From Gemmobacter fulvus (GTDB lineage Bacteria > Pseudomonadota > Alphaproteobacteria > Rhodobacterales > Rhodobacteraceae): a DNA stretch of 64,000 bases. The notes below the pieces were generated by a model that saw only the letters and a list, made by a program, of their open reading frames with translations, searched no databases and was not told the origin of the DNA. Position numbers and translations under genes: made by a program. This document shows, one piece after another, positions 26,710 to 50,902 of the stretch (within the stretch, counting starts at the first letter, position 1; each line of letters starts with the position of its first letter). The stretch covers positions 124,001 through 188,000 of the forward strand of contig NZ_CP076361.1 in the NCBI RefSeq assembly GCF_018798885.1, written 5' to 3'.

Positions 26710-27663
26710 TCACTCCTCCGGCAGCAGGGCAAGGCCGGTGTCGGCCTCCAGCTCTGCCAGTCGGCGGCGGAACCGCGGGGCGGCCATCCGCCGCGTGACA
26801 GACCGGCAGATCATCGCTTCGCGGTGCGGGTGGCCGGTGGTGTCGGCATGATGCAGGATATTCTTCAGGTATGGCCCGAAAATCCGCCGCTTGCGCCAGA
26901 GCGTGGCAAAACTGGCGCGCGTCAGGCGGCCTTCACCGGCCAGATCAATCACCTGCGGCAGCACATCCATGGCGGCCAGCGCGTGATCGACCCGCTCTCC
27001 CAGAAAGGGGGTGCGCAGCGGGGTGACGAAGGGTTTGCTGAGCAGGGCCGCGTGCATCGCATCGGCGGTCTGATGCGGATCAAAGATCACGAAAACATCG
27101 CCGGTGCCTTCGATCATGTCCGGCGCATAGCCATACCGATCGGTAAAACACAGCCGCCGCTGCGCCAGATGGCGGCGATCCCAGCCGGCAATCGCCGGAT
27201 CCAGCGTGGCGCGCGGCTGCACCGCGACAACGCTGGCCCCCGGCGCGCAGACGGAAAACGCACAGGCCGCATAGCCGCCCGGACCCGCGCCATAGATCAC
27301 CACCCGGTCAAAATCCTCGAAGAAGGCATCATCGACCAGCCGGTCGAAATAGCGGTAAACCCGGTCGTCGCGATACCAGGTCTCGCCATCCGCGATCAGG
27401 CACAGATGCGACCAGCCTTTGGCTTCGGCCAGGGTGCAGCCCATCGGCATCTGACGCGGAGTGGCGCGCAGGGTGTCCAGCGATTCGAAGGTGACCAGCA
27501 GGGTCGATCCTTCATCGACAAAGAAGGCCCAGTGCTTGTCGCCCAGCGGTTCGAAATAACCGCTGTCCTCGCAGATTTCCTCCATCCGCGCGCACCAGCT
27601 CGCCAGATCCGTGGCTTGCGAGGCATCGAAATGCGAGTCGGTCTGTGCTGCGTCTGCGGTCAT
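26710..27663 (-). CDS. Alpha/beta-hydrolase-fold protein lacking the nucleophile serine; paralogue of the fusion C-terminus at 31472
   Basis: A 317-residue protein with no secretion signal. Residues about 35-270 align by eye with residues about 463-700 of the 736-aa fusion protein: shared L-V-T-F-x-x-L-D, G-W-S-x-L, G-x-T-W-Y-R-D, and the nucleophile elbow. In the fusion the elbow is Y-G-A-S-M-G-G-Y; here it is Y-G-A-G-P-G-G-Y, so the serine is replaced by glycine (residue 127). The fold is probably kept but hydrolysis by the usual mechanism should be lost, suggesting a binding or regulatory copy. It heads away from the GT2 gene after a 206-bp gap with a hairpin. Function unknown. Confidence 0.65.
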   Translation of the reverse strand: MTADAAQTDSHFDASQATDLASWCARMEEICEDSGYFEPLGDKHWAFFVDEGSTLLVTFESLDTLRATPRQMPMGCTLAEAKGWSHLCLIADGETWYRDDRVYRYFDRLVDDAFFEDFDRVVIYGAGPGGYAACAFSVCAPGASVVAVQPRATLDPAIAGWDRRHLAQRRLCFTDRYGYAPDMIEGTGDVFVIFDPHQTADAMHAALLSKPFVTPLRTPFLGERVDHALAAMDVLPQVIDLAGEGRLTRASFATLWRKRRIFGPYLKNILHHADTTGHPHREAMICRSVTRRMAAPRFRRRLAELEADTGLALLPEE

Positions 27664-27869: not shown

Positions 27870-28925
27870 TCACGCGGCCTCGTCATCGGGCACATCGGCG
27901 TCGCCGTCATAGCCTGCGCCATCGGCGGCAATCGCCGTTTCGCCCAGCGCCATGCGGTTGCGATGCGCCTCGATCTTCTGTTTCATCTCGGCGAAATGCG
28001 GGTCGGCATGAAGTTCGGCGATCTTGCTCTGATGCCAGCGGACCGCGCGCTGGTGCAGCGTGTTCAGGCGGCGGTCCGCCAGCAGATCGGCCATCCAGCC
28101 TGCGGTGGCGGCGTCATAACGGCGGATCAGGTCGCAGGGCTCGTCATTGCAGTCATTATGCGCCCAATAGTCGAATTCCATCTTGTCATTGACATGGTTC
28201 ACCTTGCCGCGCGCCGATTTGACCAGAAAGCTGTCCAGCGCGCGCAGTTGGTAATGGTTGACCTGCGCCACCGAATAATCCGCCTGCACATGCAGCTTGG
28301 ATCTGCCCATGTCGACCACAACGCCGCCCGGCAATTCGCGGCGGATGTCGCGCCCGAGGTCCGGCGAGACCACGGGCGTATGCACCCCAAGCCGGCTCAG
28401 ATGCTGGACAATATCGCCCCGGAACAGCGTCTTGGGAAAGGCATAGGGCTGCGCCTGCGGTCCCGTTGCCCAGTTGGCACGCAGGAATTGCGCGGTGATC
28501 GGGCCTTCGCGGAACTCTTGCTGGCCGCTGGTGCCAAAACGCCGCCACGGCACCGAGATTGCCTCCACATCCGGGCTTGCGGTGGCAACCAGCGCGCGGG
28601 CCGATCCATCGCCGGCGCGCGAGGCCAGAAATTCATCGGCATCGCAGACGTAAAGCCAGTCCGCCTTCTGCACCGCCTCGAACCGCATGGCCTGCCGCAG
28701 GGCGCGGCGCTGGATCGACTGACCGGGTTTGTAGCGGGTGGGATGATGCTGGGCGAGGCCCATGCGTTCCATCCGGCGCACCATCTCCGAGGTGGTATCC
28801 TCGCAGTCATTGGTGCAGATCACCAGATGGTCAAAGCCCAGCGCCTTGTGATGGGCGACCCATTCCACAAGAAACGCGCCTTCGTTTTTCATCGTGGTGA
28901 TGACAGCATATCCGCCATTTGTCAT
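27870..28925 (-). CDS. Glycosyltransferase, GT2-fold (Glyco_tranf_2_4 type)
   Basis: A 351-residue cytoplasmic transferase. It opens with the family start Y-A-V-I-T-T-M-K-N-E-G-A-F-L-V-E-W-V-x-H-H near residue 6, then T-N-D-C-E-D-T-T, and the metal/nucleotide-binding D-A-D-E-F at 95-99. A late V-N-H-Y-Q-L-R ... F-L-V-K motif is shared with the neighbour. The C-terminal 20 residues are acidic and low in complexity. It is clearly a paralogue of the C-terminal half of the upstream 768-aa protein, 34 bp away, and both are probably transcribed together. Sugar donor and acceptor are unknown. Confidence 0.82.
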   Translation of the reverse strand: MTNGGYAVITTMKNEGAFLVEWVAHHKALGFDHLVICTNDCEDTTSEMVRRMERMGLAQHHPTRYKPGQSIQRRALRQAMRFEAVQKADWLYVCDADEFLASRAGDGSARALVATASPDVEAISVPWRRFGTSGQQEFREGPITAQFLRANWATGPQAQPYAFPKTLFRGDIVQHLSRLGVHTPVVSPDLGRDIRRELPGGVVVDMGRSKLHVQADYSVAQVNHYQLRALDSFLVKSARGKVNHVNDKMEFDYWAHNDCNDEPCDLIRRYDAATAGWMADLLADRRLNTLHQRAVRWHQSKIAELHADPHFAEMKQKIEAHRNRMALGETAIAADGAGYDGDADVPDDEAA

Positions 28926-28959
28926 GCGGCACTCCTCATGCGGGGGCGGGAAACATCGG

Positions 28960-31266
28960 TCAATGTTCCGCCTCGCCACTGTGTTCGACGGTAAAAAAGA
29001 AATCAGGTGCCATCGGGGTCAGATGCAGATCCGGTGGAATGACACCGGGGCCCGCCGCAAACACGGCAGAGCCGAAATGCTGTTGCAGCCGACACAGGGT
29101 CTGCATCCGGTCGCCCGTCAGCTCGGCATAAAACTTGCGGTAGTTCTCGGTCGCCATCAGCTTGGTGATCTTGGCGCGGTGGCAAGCCACCGAATGCTCA
29201 TGCGCGGCGCGGATTTCGGGATCGGCCAGCAGGCTGTCCATCTCGGCCTGAAGCCGGGGGATCATGCGCTGGATCGAGCGGTCCTCGCAGGCGTTGTGGT
29301 TCATGCGGAACCAGTAGTTCAGCCCCTGATCGCGGTCGACATGGTTGACCCGGCCCCGGTCGCGCTTGACCAGAAAGCTTTCGGCCGAGCGCACGGCATA
29401 ATGGTTCAGCTGCACCCAGTCATAGCCATAGGTTTCCAGCGTGGAGCGCCAGGCATTGCGATAGGCCTCGATCGGCATCGGCTGGCCCGAGCCGTTCAGC
29501 CAGCGCACCTCGTTCCACAGATCCGGGCGCAGCCCCTTGGGCCGATGCACGCCCAGTTTCTTGTAAAGGTCGACATTGCGGAACAGCGTCTTGAAGCCCC
29601 AGGCCTGATGCGGTTTGCGCACCACTTCGGGCGCGCAGCGGCTGAACTGTTCGATCAGGAAGCGGTCATCGTAGCCCTGCACATCGGCATTGCCGAACAG
29701 CCGCCACGTCAGCGAAATCATGTTCGCCGTGCCCATCGCCTCGTAGAGGGATTTCAGCGTGCCGTCGCCGATCTTGATGTCGATGAACTCATCGACATCC
29801 ATGCAGATGCCCCAGCCGCAATTCTGCATGATCGGCTCGGCCTCGGCCGCCTGCAAGGCCGCGTGCTGCGGCTTGAGGTTCATGCTGCGGAACGGGTTTT
29901 CACGGTGCTGCACCAGCCCCTTGCGTTGCAGCAGGTCCAGCATCGTATCGGTGCCATCGGTGCAGTCATTGGTGTAGATGAGAAAATCATCCACACCGAT
30001 CATGCGGTGATAGGCCAGCCATTCCAGAATGAACGGGCCTTCGTTCTTCATCGTGGTGACGATGGCGGTGCGCCCGGCATCGGCGGCTGCCACGGGGGCG
30101 GTGCGCGGGGCCGACACCGGCGCGCGCACCGGATTGTGGCCCAGCGGGCCGGTGGCCAGCGCCAGCAGGCTTGCATCCTCGATCAGCGAGGATTTCGGGG
30201 CCAGCTCGCCCGAGGTGCGCCCCGGCACCCGCAGGGCCATGGCGCGGTGAAAATGCGCAACCCCTTCTTCGTCGGGCTTGGCATAGCTGACCCGGACCAT
30301 GCGCCAGCTGTTTTCCAGCCCGGCCTTCTGTGGCGCCACGCCCCAGCGCGCCATGCCGCGCCGCCCGTCGAACTGGCGGCAGATATGGTCGCCAAATCGG
30401 GCATCACGCCCTGCGCGCACCCGCCATGGGTAGATGCGATGCCCCACCAGCAGGATCACCCCCGCCGGTGCCCCGGCACACAGATCAAAGGCCGAAGGAG
30501 TCTCTTCGCTGCGCGGCGCCAGAATATCGGTGACATCAAGGGTCAGTACGGCGCGGGCTTCGGCCAGAAAGCGCCATTTCGCCAGCTCATAGATAATGCC
30601 TTCGCCCAGCGGGCTGCGCCAGGGATCGGGGGCAGGGCGTTCCATCCGGTCTTTGCCCGGCGCGTCGGGGGCGAGATACAGATGGTTTTCCGGCTCCACC
30701 CCCGGTTTGCCCAAGGGCACCGGGCAATCCAGCACCACCACGGTGATCGGTGTATCCTTCAGGGCAGCCAGCAGATCGATGGCAAAGGCATCGGGCGTGG
30801 GGCCGGGCAGGCGGTTGACGATCAGCGCCGCCTCCAGCCCGTGATGGGTGGCATGATAGCGCAGCCCTTCGGCCACCTGCGCGCCGGTTTCCTCCAGGCG
30901 GAAACCAAAGCTGGTGTTGCGGCCCCGGAACAGATGGGTTTCCGCTGCAACCGGCGTCAGATCCAGAACCCCGCCATTGGCCAACGCCAGCCGGGGCGGG
31001 CCTTCGGCCACCACCAGCGCCGCGCCGGACAGCGACCGCAGCTCAAGCGGCAGGGCGCAGCCGTCGCCGCCGTCGGGCAGGAAGGTCGCAATATCGGTGC
31101 CATTGCCGAAAAAGGCGCGGATACGGTCCTCGGTCTGCACGGCATCCAGCAAAAGCGGTACACCCGGCATATCCAGCGCGCGGGCACCAAGGCTGCGGCG
31201 CAGCACGACGGCCCCCGGTGCCACAATGACCGGGGCCTTGCGGCGGGCTGTCTGCTGCTTCGGCAT
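28960..31266 (-). CDS. Large GT2-fold glycosyltransferase with a 400-residue N-terminal extension
   Basis: A 768-residue protein. Residues about 399-700 are a complete GT2_4-type transferase: A-I-V-T-T-M-K-N-E-G-P-F-I-L-E-W near 401, Y-T-N-D-C-T-D-G-T, D-V-D-E-F at 490-494, and V-Q-L-N-H-Y-A-V-R-S ... F-L-V-K. Residues about 100-345 look like a degenerate second copy: an R-Y-H-A-T-H-H-G-L-E-A-A-L-I-V-N-R segment near 136 and L-D-V-T-D-I-L where D-x-D-E-F would be. ATG 31266 fits the family better than an upstream frame. No signal peptide is seen. It is divergent from the GT-hydrolase fusion. Confidence 0.75.
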   Translation of the reverse strand: MPKQQTARRKAPVIVAPGAVVLRRSLGARALDMPGVPLLLDAVQTEDRIRAFFGNGTDIATFLPDGGDGCALPLELRSLSGAALVVAEGPPRLALANGGVLDLTPVAAETHLFRGRNTSFGFRLEETGAQVAEGLRYHATHHGLEAALIVNRLPGPTPDAFAIDLLAALKDTPITVVVLDCPVPLGKPGVEPENHLYLAPDAPGKDRMERPAPDPWRSPLGEGIIYELAKWRFLAEARAVLTLDVTDILAPRSEETPSAFDLCAGAPAGVILLVGHRIYPWRVRAGRDARFGDHICRQFDGRRGMARWGVAPQKAGLENSWRMVRVSYAKPDEEGVAHFHRAMALRVPGRTSGELAPKSSLIEDASLLALATGPLGHNPVRAPVSAPRTAPVAAADAGRTAIVTTMKNEGPFILEWLAYHRMIGVDDFLIYTNDCTDGTDTMLDLLQRKGLVQHRENPFRSMNLKPQHAALQAAEAEPIMQNCGWGICMDVDEFIDIKIGDGTLKSLYEAMGTANMISLTWRLFGNADVQGYDDRFLIEQFSRCAPEVVRKPHQAWGFKTLFRNVDLYKKLGVHRPKGLRPDLWNEVRWLNGSGQPMPIEAYRNAWRSTLETYGYDWVQLNHYAVRSAESFLVKRDRGRVNHVDRDQGLNYWFRMNHNACEDRSIQRMIPRLQAEMDSLLADPEIRAAHEHSVACHRAKITKLMATENYRKFYAELTGDRMQTLCRLQQHFGSAVFAAGPGVIPPDLHLTPMAPDFFFTVEHSGEAEH

Positions 31267-31471: not shown

Positions 31472-33682
31472 ATGGCACGGCAACGCGAGGTTGGAACGCT
31501 CTGGATCGGTGGAAGCCTGAGCTGGATGGAGCAGCTGTGCCTCAAATCCTTTGTCGATCAGGGCCAGAAGATCACGCTGTTTTCGTATGAAGAAATTCCC
31601 AATGTGCCCGAGGGCGTCATTCGCCGCGACGGGCGCGAGATCCTCGATACCGACAATTTTCTGAAATACGAAAAGAAAGACAGTTTCGCGCTGTTTGCCG
31701 ATCTGTTCCGCCTGCACATGATCCGCAAATGCCCCGGCATGATCTGGATCGACACCGATGTCTATTGCCAGCAGCCGATGGACTATGACAGCGATTATGT
31801 GCTGGGGTTCGAACTGCCGGGCCGCCGCCGGGTGAACAATGCGGTTCTGGGCCTGCCTGCCGACAGCCCGCTGTTGCAGGCCTTGCTGGAGTTTACCGCC
31901 GATCAGTTCGCCATCCCCGAATTCCTGAAACCGGAAGAGCGTGAAGACTATCGCGCCGCCGCCGCCAAGGGCCAGCCGGTGCATGTCTCGCAGCAGCCCT
32001 GGGGCGTCTGGGGACCGATGATGATCACCCATTTCGTGCACAAGCTGGGCCTGTTGGACAAGGTGCAGCCGTTGCAGGCGTTTTATCCGGTTACCTTTCC
32101 CAACCGGATGCAGTTCTTGCGGCGGGCCGCCGTGGTCGACATGTCGGTGACCAAGGCCACCACGGCGCTGCATGTCTGGGCCTCCAACAAGCGCGAACTG
32201 GGGCTGCGCCACAATGGCCTGCCCCCGGCGGACAGCTGGTTTGACCGGGCCTGCCGCAAACATGGCATCCGCCCCGAGGCTGCGCCGATCAAGGGGCGTG
32301 GCAAGCGGGTGTTCGAGGCCGGGCTGGTCGATCAGGTAGATCTGGAGCAGGTGGGCCAGTTTGCTGATGTGGGCGGCAATGCCCAGAGCCTCGCCTTGGC
32401 CGCGCATCTGCGCTGGGGCTGTGACATTCATCTGGTCGATCTGGATCACAAGGGGCAATTCTCCGATCGCGCCAGCGCCTGGGTGCCGCAATACACCGCG
32501 TTTCTACGCGAACATGGCGTGGACGGCGCGCGCATCCACCATGTGACGCGGCCCGCCGATCTGTCGGCCTATGATCTGATCGCCAATCTGTCGGGCTTTG
32601 GCGATCTGAACAAGGTCAGCCATCTGGACCCGGTGATGACGCAGTGCCTGACCGCCGAAACACGCATGATCACCGATATCCGCAAGGGATCGGGGGCCTA
32701 TCCGTTTCTGAACGCCTATGGCGCCTGCACCACACTCAGCACCCGCGAAGTGGATGGGGTGGCGGTGGTGCGGGCGCTGTTCCGCTCCAAAGCGGCCACC
32801 GCCTTGCTGCCCGTCCATACCGATGACTGGGCACAGGTGGCGGCGACACTGATGGGACCGGACGGCTTTTACCGGGCCAATGACAGCCACTCGTTTCTTT
32901 ATGTGCCGCGCGGGTCCGATACGCTGGTGGTGACCTTCGACAACCTCGACATTGCCATGACCAAACGCGAGGACCGCCGGCCCTGGGGCTACAGCTTCAT
33001 CGAAAAACAGGGCTGGTCGATGCTGGGCGTCATGGCGAATGGCTGGACCTGGTATCGCGACCCCTGGGTCTGGGATCAGTTCGACGATCTGGCCACCAGC
33101 GATTTCTTCGACCGCTACAAACGTGTCGTGTTTTATGGCGCCTCGATGGGGGGATATGCCGCCTGCGCCTTTGCCGCCGCCTGTCCGGGGGCCGAGGTGC
33201 TGGCCATCAGCCCGCAATCCACGCTGGACAAGAGCCTCGTGCCCTGGGAATCCCGTTACAAGGTGGCATGGGACAAGGATTTTTCCGGCTATTATGGCGA
33301 TGCCGCCGATGTGTCGCGCACGGCGCGGCGGGTGACGATCCTCTATGACCCCTATGAGCCACTGGATGCGGGCCATGTGGCGCGGTTCACCCATGACAAT
33401 GTGATGAAACTGCGCACGCCGCTGCTGGGCCATCGGCTGGGCACCAGCCTGCAACAGATGGGCCTGTTGTCCCCGATCACGCTGGGCGCGCTGAACGGCA
33501 CGCTGACCGAGCTGGAATTTTACCGCATGATCCGTGCGCGCAAAAGCTTTGGCCGCTATCAGAAAGAGCTGTTCAAACGCGCAATGGACCGGGGCCGCCC
33601 GGAGCTGGCGAAAAAGCTGGGCCGCTGGGTGCTGACCCGTGGTGACAACCGTTATATCCGCAAGGAAATGGCGGCGCTGTGA
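31472..33682 (+). CDS. Three-domain fusion: DxD glycosyltransferase, Rossmann/methyltransferase-like domain, alpha/beta hydrolase
   Basis: A 736-residue protein with three parts. Residues 1-260 resemble GT32/capsular sugar transferases: L-F-A-D-L-F-R near 74, then I-W-I-D-T-D-V-Y with DxD at 94-96. Residues about 290-425 look like a nucleotide or SAM-binding Rossmann domain: F-A-D-V-G-G-N at 297-303, L-V-D-L-D-H-K at 321-327, T-D-I-R-K-G-S-G-A-Y at 401-410. Residues about 463-700 are an alpha/beta-hydrolase-like domain with elbow Y-G-A-S-M-G-G-Y (Ser558) and a candidate Asp626. The hydrolase part is paralogous to the 26710 gene. ATG 31472 is preferred; 31418 and 31427 are alternatives without a ribosome site. 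Domains 1 and 3 are better supported than domain 2. Confidence 0.7.
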   Translation: MARQREVGTLWIGGSLSWMEQLCLKSFVDQGQKITLFSYEEIPNVPEGVIRRDGREILDTDNFLKYEKKDSFALFADLFRLHMIRKCPGMIWIDTDVYCQQPMDYDSDYVLGFELPGRRRVNNAVLGLPADSPLLQALLEFTADQFAIPEFLKPEEREDYRAAAAKGQPVHVSQQPWGVWGPMMITHFVHKLGLLDKVQPLQAFYPVTFPNRMQFLRRAAVVDMSVTKATTALHVWASNKRELGLRHNGLPPADSWFDRACRKHGIRPEAAPIKGRGKRVFEAGLVDQVDLEQVGQFADVGGNAQSLALAAHLRWGCDIHLVDLDHKGQFSDRASAWVPQYTAFLREHGVDGARIHHVTRPADLSAYDLIANLSGFGDLNKVSHLDPVMTQCLTAETRMITDIRKGSGAYPFLNAYGACTTLSTREVDGVAVVRALFRSKAATALLPVHTDDWAQVAATLMGPDGFYRANDSHSFLYVPRGSDTLVVTFDNLDIAMTKREDRRPWGYSFIEKQGWSMLGVMANGWTWYRDPWVWDQFDDLATSDFFDRYKRVVFYGASMGGYAACAFAAACPGAEVLAISPQSTLDKSLVPWESRYKVAWDKDFSGYYGDAADVSRTARRVTILYDPYEPLDAGHVARFTHDNVMKLRTPLLGHRLGTSLQQMGLLSPITLGALNGTLTELEFYRMIRARKSFGRYQKELFKRAMDRGRPELAKKLGRWVLTRGDNRYIRKEMAAL

Positions 33683-33777: not shown

Positions 33778-34689
33778 GTGAGCAATCTGCCGAAATCCAT
33801 TGATGCGGTGGAGGCCCTGCTGGCCGACCACGGCTATATCGCCGCCCGTGCCCTTGCGACGGTGGTGTTCCTGTCGCTGAAACTCGGGCGTCCGTTGTTT
33901 CTGGAAGGCGAGGCGGGCGTCGGCAAGACCGAGATTGCCAAGGTGATCGCGGCGGCCTTGGGGCGGCGGCTGATCCGGCTGCAATGTTACGAAGGGCTGG
34001 ATGCGGCTTCGGCGGTTTACGAATGGAATTTCGCGGCACAGATGATCGCCATCCGCACCGCCGAGGCGGGCGGCGGCGCAGATCGCAGCGCCTTGCGTGC
34101 CGAGTTGTTCACCGAGGACTATCTGATCGAACGCCCGTTGCTGGCCGCGATGCGCCCGCAACCCGGTGGCGCGCCGGTACTGCTGATCGACGAGCTGGAC
34201 CGCACCGATGAGCCCTTTGAGGCCTATCTGCTGGAGGCGCTGAGTGATTTTCAGGTGACAATCCCCGAGCTTGGCACCGTCAAGGCCCCCGAGGCACCGA
34301 TTGTGATCCTCACCTCCAACCGCACGCGTGAGGTACATGACGCGCTCAAACGCCGCTGCCTTTATCATTGGGTGGATTACCCGGATGCTGCGCGCGAAGC
34401 GCAGATCCTGACGGCCCGCTGCCCCGAGGCGCAACAGGCGCTGTCGCGCGAGGTGGTGGCCTTTGTGCAGCGCCTGCGCAGCGAGGATCTGTTCAAGAAA
34501 CCCGGCGTGGCCGAAACGATCGACTGGGCGAAATGCCTGCTGGCGCTGGATGTGATCTCGCTCACCCCCGAGGTGATTGCCGATACGCTGGGCGCGATTC
34601 TGAAATATCAGGATGACATCCAGAAAATTCAGGGAGCCGAGGCGAAGCGTATTCTGGACGAGATCCGCCGCGACCTTGCACCGGTCTGA
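33778..34689 (+). CDS. MoxR-family AAA+ ATPase
   Basis: A 303-residue AAA+ protein. Walker A is G-E-A-G-V-G-K-T-E near residue 41, Walker B L-L-I-D-E-L-D-R near 137, sensor-1 I-L-T-S-N-R-T-R near 178, and the arginine-finger region K-R-R-C-L-Y-H-W follows. These ATPases act as chaperones that load metals or mature enzyme complexes, normally with a VWA-domain partner encoded next door (CoxD-CoxE style). No VWA gene follows here. The start is a GTG with AGGGAGG 4 nt upstream, the best ribosome site in this region. Confidence 0.9.
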   Translation: MSNLPKSIDAVEALLADHGYIAARALATVVFLSLKLGRPLFLEGEAGVGKTEIAKVIAAALGRRLIRLQCYEGLDAASAVYEWNFAAQMIAIRTAEAGGGADRSALRAELFTEDYLIERPLLAAMRPQPGGAPVLLIDELDRTDEPFEAYLLEALSDFQVTIPELGTVKAPEAPIVILTSNRTREVHDALKRRCLYHWVDYPDAAREAQILTARCPEAQQALSREVVAFVQRLRSEDLFKKPGVAETIDWAKCLLALDVISLTPEVIADTLGAILKYQDDIQKIQGAEAKRILDEIRRDLAPV

Positions 34690-49247: not shown

Positions 49248-49360
49248 CAGCATGTCGTTTTTGCGCCTCAGGTGACGCAATCAGGGTGCGGGGGGGCGAC
49301 CAAAGGCGGCATATAGAAGAAAATATGCAGCACCCGACGGATGCGGGACGGAGGATTTCG

Positions 49361-50902
49361 ATGAGCGATGTGGCAGCAGGGCGCCGGGCGCGCGGGGGCG
49401 GGGCGGCGCGTCGGGCAGAGCGCACGGCGGTCAGTCTGGACACGGCGAAGTTCATCAGCCGCAACATTCCGAATTTCGAGATCCTCAATGACGAGGCGTT
49501 GCAGATCATCGAATGGAACGCGGAGACCGTTCTGGAAGAGATCGGCGTGAATTTCCTCGAGAATCCGGGGGCTTTGGCGCTGTGGAAAGCGGCGGGGGCG
49601 GATGTGCGCGGTGAACGTGTGCATATTCCGCGTGGCCTTGCCCGCAAGCTCTGTGCCACTGCGCCGCGCAGCTTTACCCAGCACGCCCGCAACGCCGAGC
49701 GCAATGTCGAGATCGGCGGACGCAATCTGGTGCTGGCCCCGGTCTATGGCCCGCCCTTCGTGCGGGATCGTGAGGGCGGGCGGCGGTATGCCACCATGGC
49801 CGATTTCAAGAATTTCGTGAAACTGGGCTATATGTCGAAATGGCTGCACCATTCCGGCGGTACGGTGTGCGAGCCGACCGATGTGGCGGTGAACAAACGC
49901 CATCTGGACATGCTGCACGCGCATATGACGCTGAGCGACAAGCCGTTCATGGGATCGGTGACGGAGCCGGTGCGCGCTGCCGATTCGGTCGAAATGTCGA
50001 AGCTGCTGTTCGGGGCGGATTTCGTCGATCAGAACGTGGTGATGACCTCGCTGATCAATATCAACAGCCCGCTGACCTTCGATTCGACGATGATGGGCGC
50101 GCTGGAGGTCTATGCCAGGGCCGGGCAGGCGGCGATCATCTCTCCCTTCATCGTTGGCGGCGCGATGGCGCCGGTGACGGTGGCAGGCACGCTGACGCAG
50201 GTTCTGGCCGAGGTGCTGGCGGGCGTGGCCTATAGCCAGTTGGTGCGGCCCGGGGCGCCGGTGATCTTTGGTGCCTTTGTGACCTCGATCGACATGAACT
50301 CGGGTGCGCCGACCTTTGGCACGCCGGAGGCCGCGCATATCACCTATGGGGCCGGGCAACTGGCGCGGCGGTTGGGGCTGCCGTATCGGTCGGGCGGGTC
50401 GTTCTGCGGCTCCAAGCTGCCGGATGCGCAGGCGGCTTACGAGACGGCGAACAGCCTGAACATGGCGCTGCTGGCGGGCGTGAACTTCATGCTGCATGCC
50501 TGCGGCTGGCTGGAGGGCGGGTTGGTGTCGTCTTACGAGAAATTCGTGATGGACGCCGATCAGCTGGGCACGCTGCACCATCTGGCGCAGGGCGTGATGA
50601 TGGATGAGAACGGTCAGGGCATGGATGCGATCCGCGAGGTCGGCCCCGGTGGTCACTATCTGGGCTGTGCCCATACGCAGGCCAATTTCAAGAGTGCGTT
50701 CTGGCGGTCGGATCTGCTGGATTACAAGCCGTTCGAGACCTGGGATGAGGAAGGCGCGCGCGATACCGAAACACTGGCGGCGGAGCGGGTGAAGAAGATG
50801 CTGGGGGATTACCAGCAACCCGCGCTGGACGAGGGTATCCGCGAGTCACTGGACGATTATGTGGCGCGCAAGAAGGCGGCAGAGCCGGACGCCTTCATCT
50901 GA
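49361..50902 (+). CDS. Second MttB-family methyltransferase-like protein, non-pyrrolysine
   Basis: A 513-residue MttB/COG5598 protein, paralogous to the one at 768. Family segments include S-G-G-T-V-C-E-P-T-D near residue 165, G-S-F-C-G-S-K-L-P-D-A-Q-A-A-Y near 346 and V-G-P-G-G-H-Y-L-G near 426. There is no in-frame TAG. The N-terminus carries the same G-G-x-A-A-R-x-A-E-R arginine-rich motif as the first copy. GGAGG precedes ATG 49361. It is monocistronic, with a strong terminator behind it and no corrinoid protein or dehydrogenase nearby. Different residues around the active-site barrel suggest a different substrate from copy 1. Confidence 0.85.
   Translation: MSDVAAGRRARGGGAARRAERTAVSLDTAKFISRNIPNFEILNDEALQIIEWNAETVLEEIGVNFLENPGALALWKAAGADVRGERVHIPRGLARKLCATAPRSFTQHARNAERNVEIGGRNLVLAPVYGPPFVRDREGGRRYATMADFKNFVKLGYMSKWLHHSGGTVCEPTDVAVNKRHLDMLHAHMTLSDKPFMGSVTEPVRAADSVEMSKLLFGADFVDQNVVMTSLININSPLTFDSTMMGALEVYARAGQAAIISPFIVGGAMAPVTVAGTLTQVLAEVLAGVAYSQLVRPGAPVIFGAFVTSIDMNSGAPTFGTPEAAHITYGAGQLARRLGLPYRSGGSFCGSKLPDAQAAYETANSLNMALLAGVNFMLHACGWLEGGLVSSYEKFVMDADQLGTLHHLAQGVMMDENGQGMDAIREVGPGGHYLGCAHTQANFKSAFWRSDLLDYKPFETWDEEGARDTETLAAERVKKMLGDYQQPALDEGIRESLDDYVARKKAAEPDAFI

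Follow-up and report, generated by a model that had tools for sequence, protein, structure and literature searches.

Does a protein chain that joins a sugar transferase, a methyltransferase-like domain, and an α/β serine hydrolase function as one enzyme of glycan assembly, and which of its three parts are active? The question is raised by a gene in a 64,000-nucleotide stretch of the genome of Gemmobacter fulvus (the window), for which the original prediction proposed a glycan that is extended, modified, and edited in one complex. The fused gene is real, and the observation of the fusion is confirmed. With moderate confidence, the product of the gene is interpreted as a soluble enzyme of glycan assembly in the cytoplasm, in which a methyltransferase-derived spacer lies between two functional active sites.

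Gene and domain organization

The gene extends from an ATG codon to a stop codon at positions 31472–33682 of the forward strand and encodes a protein of 736 residues. Its codon-position GC content is consistent with that of a coding sequence, and the ATG is located at the same residue in 23 of 26 aligned relatives. The AlphaFold2 model of the protein, with 27 aligned full-length proteins, has a pLDDT of 83.8 and a pTM of 0.60, so that the packing of the domains is not fixed by the model. Two further relatives, L036 and L037, were excluded from the 27-row alignment because of an in-frame stop codon. The model splits into domains formed by residues ~1–275 (glycosyltransferase, GT), 282–440 (methyltransferase-like, MT), and 453–736 (hydrolase, HYD), and its pLDDT falls below 50 in residues 64–67, 442–451 (a linker), 492–495, and 585–593. 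The mean pairwise identity is 69% in the GT domain, 43% in the middle domain, and 73% in the hydrolase. The presence of three separate folds, supported by both the model and the Foldseek matches, bears out the claim of three domains in one chain, for which structure prediction had been suggested as a check.

All the matches of the whole protein to Pfam are below the curated cut-offs: Gb3_synth (E = 0.0025, residues 197–261), Gly_transf_sug (E = 0.029, residues 66–104), Esterase (E = 0.039, residues 550–603), and Caps_synth (E = 0.21 for the whole window protein). The search of NCBIfam returned no family at E ≤ 1. Over its whole length, the fused protein thus belongs to none of the families in Pfam or NCBIfam, in support of the original prediction. 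Profile searches of the PDB, performed domain by domain, provided no significant match (best E-values 0.17, 0.4, and 0.38). The Foldseek matches in the PDB comprise SetA for the GT (8x4k, E = 3.5e-6), a group of SAM methyltransferases with E-values from 7.8e-5, and antigen 85 proteins and esterases with E-values from 6.6e-5, among them Ag85C together with lipases and esterases. The target TM-scores of these matches are modest, ~0.3–0.5, and the matches were placed on the domains according to the identity of the targets, as the output contains no query ranges. No description of the GT/middle/hydrolase architecture was found in the open-licence PMC literature, to which the search was confined.

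Distribution of the fusion

Full-length relatives of the fused protein are encoded in nine of the 11 genomes of the genus sample, including that of the window, and in another genome of this sample (G007) the two halves of the fusion are located at contig ends. The complete fusion is present in at least 20 of 394 sampled genomes of the family; the count is a lower bound because two candidates were scored per genome, and it includes rows covering residues ~1–736 without a stop. The best 80 of 234 relatives in named genomes, counted on query span with stops disregarded, all extend from query residue 1 to at least residue 732. The relatives occur in the genera Gemmobacter, Pseudotabrizicola, Cypionkella, Pseudorhodobacter, Thioclava, Marivita, Roseovarius, Sulfitobacter, and Rhodovulum. 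The recurrence of the full-length fusion across genomes is far beyond chance. Seven of 289 genomes in the class sample contain a match, and the three of these that are outside the family have short single-domain matches. When the hydrolase profile was searched across the phylum, 22 of 299 genomes matched, 14 from the same family and eight others with weak matches. Single-domain relatives are also present on small plasmids recorded under Bacillus velezensis (hydrolase, 38% identity) and Acinetobacter baumannii (GT, 34% identity), which could be instances of transfer or mislabelled records.

Glycosyltransferase domain

The GT32-like GT-A domain (residues 1–275, positions 31472–32296, forward strand) is assigned from the Foldseek match to 8x4k and from sub-threshold Pfam matches. 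Its predicted metal- and nucleotide-sugar-binding motif, D94-T-D96, is encoded at positions 31751–31759 of the forward strand. Both aspartates are invariant in the 27 full-length proteins and in all 22 sequences of a second alignment. The GT-A fold of the predicted model matches 8x4k with a target TM-score of 0.31. These results uphold the assignment of a GT32-like DxD transferase. At E ≤ 1, which is sub-threshold, the domain matches Gb3_synth in all 26 members, Caps_synth in 24 of them, and Gly_transf_sug in 23. The fused GT resembles the GT32, Gb3_synth, and Gly_transf_sug enzymes in its DxD motif, GT-A-type fold match, and weak Pfam matches; however, it differs from them in being part of a multidomain protein and in remaining below the Pfam cut-offs, with GT32 scores (PF04488/PF04572) of 21.0 versus 22.3 and 17.3 versus 23 bits in the window protein. 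The ratio dN/dS in the domain is 0.09–0.33 (eight pairs).

The glucosyltransferase domain of Legionella SetA (8x4k) is the best match of the fused protein in both Foldseek and phmmer searches, the latter with E = 0.007 over residues 67–205. Its identity with the fused GT is 17%. SetA is an effector that targets host cells, and a shared role is not implied.

Serine-hydrolase domain

The α/β serine-hydrolase domain (residues 453–736, positions 32828–33679, forward strand) is defined by the model together with fold and Pfam matches. Its predicted nucleophile Ser558 (33143–33145) follows the β strand 551–557 within the motif G-A-S-M-G-G, the predicted acid Asp626 (33347–33349) follows strand 620–625, and the predicted base His654 (33431–33433) follows strand 644–648; the acid and base were assigned from the alignment and model, and all three codons are on the forward strand. 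In the secondary structure of the model, each of the three residues is thus positioned after a strand in the canonical α/β-hydrolase order. They are invariant in 27 of 27 full-length proteins, and the hydrolase fold with an intact G-x-S-x-G elbow, as originally claimed, holds. The window domain scores below the Pfam cut-offs (Esterase 15.7 versus 22 bits, Abhydrolase_6 17.0 versus 26.3 bits), and hydrolase matches at E ≤ 1 recur in 16–21 of 28 members. The dN/dS values are 0.05–0.21, computable for seven of eight pairs.

Antigen 85C and esterase-type serine hydrolases resemble the fused hydrolase in their fold and Ser-Asp-His order; however, they are only 14–16% identical to it, and the window domain is fused to a GT. 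Antigen 85 proteins are extracellular, and Ag85C is a mycolyltransferase. The position of Ag85C among the top fold matches speaks against the possibility that the hydrolase is not an acyltransferase but an esterase for editing or quality control, which would remove acyl groups or release stalled intermediates. Such an esterase, which we regard as rather unlikely, is nevertheless favored by the esterases and lipases among the fold and Pfam neighbors of the domain, and by PMC5578698, in which Asp2 is reported to have acetylesterase activity in vitro. The modeled fold appears compatible with esterases and acyltransferases alike and does not decide between them.

Asp2 of the streptococcal accessory Sec system is described in PMC7948813 and PMC5578698 as a GxSxG serine enzyme with a Ser-Asp-His site that works with GTs on a glycan: it O-acetylates GlcNAc and controls further glucosylation. 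Asp2 belongs to other bacteria, has other gene neighbors, and is likened to the fused protein by role, not by sequence. It provides a precedent for O-acetylation steering later glycosylation.

Inactive paralogue of the hydrolase

A stand-alone paralogue of the hydrolase, HYD2 (positions 26710–27663, reverse strand), is encoded near pyrC. It is 38% identical to the fused hydrolase and lacks the catalytic serine and histidine, since GAGPGG replaces GASMGG and GER replaces GHR. Among 93 hydrolase rows (three of 96 ORFs, L168_11, L181_16, and L183_13, failed the filter for length and E-value), all 67 that have the serine also have the histidine, and all 26 that lack the serine lack the histidine. 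The catalytic aspartate is retained in 91 of the 93. Because serine and histidine are only lost together, the two behave as one site.

In the 95-row hydrolase tree, 26 of 27 rows without serine, including HYD2, form one clade (support 99); the remaining one, L180_28, is a long branch elsewhere. A second set, in which L020 was added to the family's 30 top-ranking matches to HYD2, has glycine and no histidine in 31 of 31 sequences, 23 of which are new while the others repeat earlier loci or the window. The persistence of the inactive form suggests that it has a non-catalytic role. HYD2-like matches (E ≤ 1e-40) are present in 288 of 388 family genomes, a tally that takes in active homologues and is not a count of pseudo-hydrolases. 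The idea that the fused protein has HYD2 for an obligate partner was rejected, as such matches are far more widespread than the fusion and HYD2 occurs in L185 and L186 without an active copy nearby.

Three records of Thioclava plasmids give stand-alone relatives of the hydrolase the misleading label "phosphoadenosine phosphosulfate reductase"; in one of these records (L170, 7992–8924) the Ser, Asp, and His residues are present. A distant copy of the hydrolase domain is located inside a "polysaccharide pyruvyl transferase family" protein (L168, 10663–12672) on a ~68-kb Phaeobacter plasmid, which also bears polysaccharide genes and genes of type I secretion; there are further records similar to it.

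Methyltransferase-like middle domain

The middle domain (residues 282–440, positions 32315–32791, forward strand) has the Rossmann-like fold of methyltransferases, as judged from the strand order of the model and Foldseek matches with E ~1e-4 and target TM-scores of ~0.5. It matches class I SAM methyltransferases, including PrmA-like 3grz (165 aligned columns, rmsd 3.9), NodS (3ofk), and RsmC (2pjd); however, the RsmC superposition is poor (rmsd 18.8), and the domain differs from these enzymes in its eroded glycine loop. Pfam searches with 27 middle domains gave scattered single matches, one of them to Methyltransf_11 at E = 0.24. The middle domain is the least conserved of the three, and its dN/dS of 0.12–0.60 (eight pairs) is above that of the other domains and under 1.

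The SAM-binding motif D-x-G-x-G is found in none of 23 three-domain proteins, whereas it is kept in seven of eight middle-domain relatives that are not fused to a hydrolase (four of five GT-MT and three of three stand-alone proteins). Therefore, a third activity is doubtful. The motif is present in five of 12 MT-hydrolase proteins without a GT. At position 303, canonically a glycine, the 23 proteins have Asn (8), Thr (8), Arg (4), Gln (1), or Ala (1), and only L072 has glycine, in combination with the loss of G301. The three-domain proteins retain D299 (23 of 23), G301 (18 of 23), and D323 (21 of 23, including the window protein), the last being the acidic residue that ends strand 2 in class I enzymes. 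G406, S407, and G408 of the stretch DIRKGSG are also invariant (23 of 23). Because of these retained residues, the middle domain may still bind a ligand, even SAM.

It is improbable that all three domains are active, with a sugar being added, methylated, and acylated or deacylated by one chain. The retained fold and residues and the dN/dS below 1 are in favor of this possibility. The second glycine of the loop is moreover not obligatory, because FkbM methyltransferases use D-x-G-A-N-x-G, and asparagine is the residue at position 303 in eight of the 23 proteins. The uniform absence of D-x-G-x-G, the low conservation, and the separate methyltransferase-like gene that adjoins the hydrolase-fused copy in L066, L068, L070, and L073 argue against it. 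The sequences indicate that the domain is probably a SAM-methyltransferase-derived fold with an eroded cofactor site, now inert or altered. The nucleotide-binding-like middle of the original prediction has thus gained a fold, while its status as an active enzyme is doubtful.

Repeated joining of glycosyltransferase and hydrolase

In a survey of domain combinations, a check proposed with the original prediction, the domains turned out to be repeatedly reshuffled. The 64 loci of 10–24 kb (L044–L083 and L167–L190) were picked for holding matches, and the counts of architectures are therefore not frequencies: GT-MT-HYD 21, MT-HYD 12, GT-MT 5, MT 3, GT 27, GT2 102, hydrolase alone 56, GT-GT2-HYD 2, GT2-HYD 2, GT-GT2 2, GT-HYD 1, GT-GT-MT-HYD 1, GT-GT-GT2-HYD 1, and GT2-GT2-GT2 1.

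Phylogenetic trees of the GT and hydrolase domains were quick searches with SH-aLRT support only; the decayed GT pieces of L080 were excluded from the GT tree. Window-type GTs form one 22-row clade (support 100); those of L072, L179, and L083/L189/L190 belong to other clades. In the hydrolase tree, L179 and L083/L189/L190 are outside the window's 34-row clade, and L072 is inside it, beside the MT-HYD rows L068–L070 (support 99). The separate clades imply, as far as quick trees allow, a minimum of four independent joinings of a GT with the hydrolase (the window type, L072, L179, and L083/L189/L190). The fusion in L179 connects the GT to the hydrolase without a middle domain. The fused GT of L080 lacks the DxD motif and is adjoined by another, intact GT, which looks like a partner replacement in progress.

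A neutral joining of neighboring operon genes, leaving the active sites uncoupled, has a low probability. The GT-fusion status of active hydrolases requires eight changes on the hydrolase tree, and L036 and L037 have the window-type order cut by a single stop codon at the GT boundary, as such a process would produce. However, the four or more joinings occurred in differing domain orders, which indicates selection for proximity. Furthermore, the separate GTs at the sites of L036 and L037 (L074 and L075) belong to another GT clade, and therefore L036 and L037 are not plain breakages of a window-type fusion.

In split operons, the slot between GT and hydrolase is occupied by a sulfotransferase in L171, L172, and L174 (PF03567, E = 5e-17 to 1e-19) and, by similarity, in L175. 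A further methyltransferase-like gene fills the slot at four of 12 MT-hydrolase loci: it is of the FkbM type in L068 and L070, matches weakly in L066, and is of a different type in L073. In many split loci, the slot is empty or filled by other genes. Near the hydrolase, genes resembling those of formylglycine-generating enzyme and sulfatase are annotated on a Thioclava plasmid and were identified by similarity in L072 and L181. Glycan decoration of varying chemistry is thus often, though not in every case, tied to the hydrolase.

Gene neighborhood

Two glycosyltransferase genes precede the fused gene on the opposite strand, and GT2/GT92-type neighbors of this kind agree with the predicted glycan setting. 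GT2a (positions 27870–28979, reverse strand) is a Glyco_tranf_2_4 protein (PF13704, E = 7.8e-22). GT2b (28960 to ~31266, with the start inferred, reverse strand) is a tandem GT-A protein (PF13704, E = 1.5e-17; PF01697, E = 3e-11), divergent from the fused gene and encoded at 21 of 21 fusion loci. The secondary structure of its AlphaFold2 model (pLDDT 88.4, pTM 0.81) reads as three domains, of which the first is a β domain, the next GT-A-like, and the last another GT-A domain. The best fold match of GT2b is the plant enzyme GalS1 (8d3t, E = 3.4e-8), which we take to be a GT92 member, followed by two-domain polymerases such as K4 chondroitin polymerase (1.2e-7), which superpose poorly (rmsd ~19). 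A profile comparison that looked for a duplicated GT in the N-terminal half of GT2b gave E = 0.083; in the model, this half contains the GT-A-like domain. Downstream of the fused gene is a MoxR-type AAA gene (33778–34689), present at just eight of 21 fusion loci.

The outer genes of the window, 35 of 57 predicted genes having been scanned with Pfam, are mostly housekeeping, regulatory, and transport genes, for example pyrC and dnaB. No flippase, polymerase, or initiating transferase was detected among these 35 genes, which therefore give no support to a surface glycan; SecA2, SecY2, Asp1, Asp3, and a serine-rich adhesin were not seen among them either. A Capsule_synth protein (PF05159; 39779–40828, forward strand) ends a run of ABC-transporter genes ~6 kb from the fused gene. 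Two genes of the trimethylamine methyltransferase family MTTB are at 49286–50902 (E = 1e-238) and, more distant, 753–2321 (E = 6e-108), both on the forward strand.

Cytoplasmic glycosylation of secreted adhesins in the accessory-Sec style, suggested by the analogy to Asp2 (PMC7948813 and PMC5578698) and by an RCC1/RTX protein that adjoins the cluster in L065, is highly improbable, and an RTX adhesin is not supported as the substrate, because a simple motif scan of 64 loci found RTX-like ORFs in five, while the window yielded none.

Proposed function of the fused protein

The preferred interpretation, a single-chain glycan-assembly enzyme with two active sites, is based on the three folds, the invariant catalytic residues, the joint loss of Ser and His, the presence of GT2b at every fusion locus, and the repeated fusion. 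We infer that the protein would be located in the cytoplasm, where its GT-A domain, by means of D94xD96, a metal, and a nucleotide sugar, would transfer one sugar onto an acceptor made with the neighboring tandem GT, GT2b. The Ser558-Asp626-His654 site would, via an acyl-enzyme, add an acyl group, most simply acetyl, to the glycan or remove it from there. The fusion would couple the extension of the glycan with its acyl modification.

More tentatively, the loci may represent a modular cassette of Rhodobacteraceae for extending, decorating, and acylating a glycan. An acyl-hydrolase would have been repeatedly fused to GTs, a slot would be filled by methyl- or sulfotransferases, and the dead hydrolase, spread through the family, would act as a non-catalytic partner or regulator. 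The window protein would be a three-in-one version in which the decoration domain serves only as a scaffold.

The results suggest that a major family of aquatic bacteria has a widespread set of enzymes acting on glycans, for which no description was found in the open-licence PMC literature. The conserved pseudo-hydrolase raises the question of non-catalytic partners in glycan assembly. The convergent fusions lead to the prediction that one substrate undergoes both sugar transfer and acyl modification, and naturally occurring split, swapped, and dead versions of the proteins make this prediction testable without designed variants.
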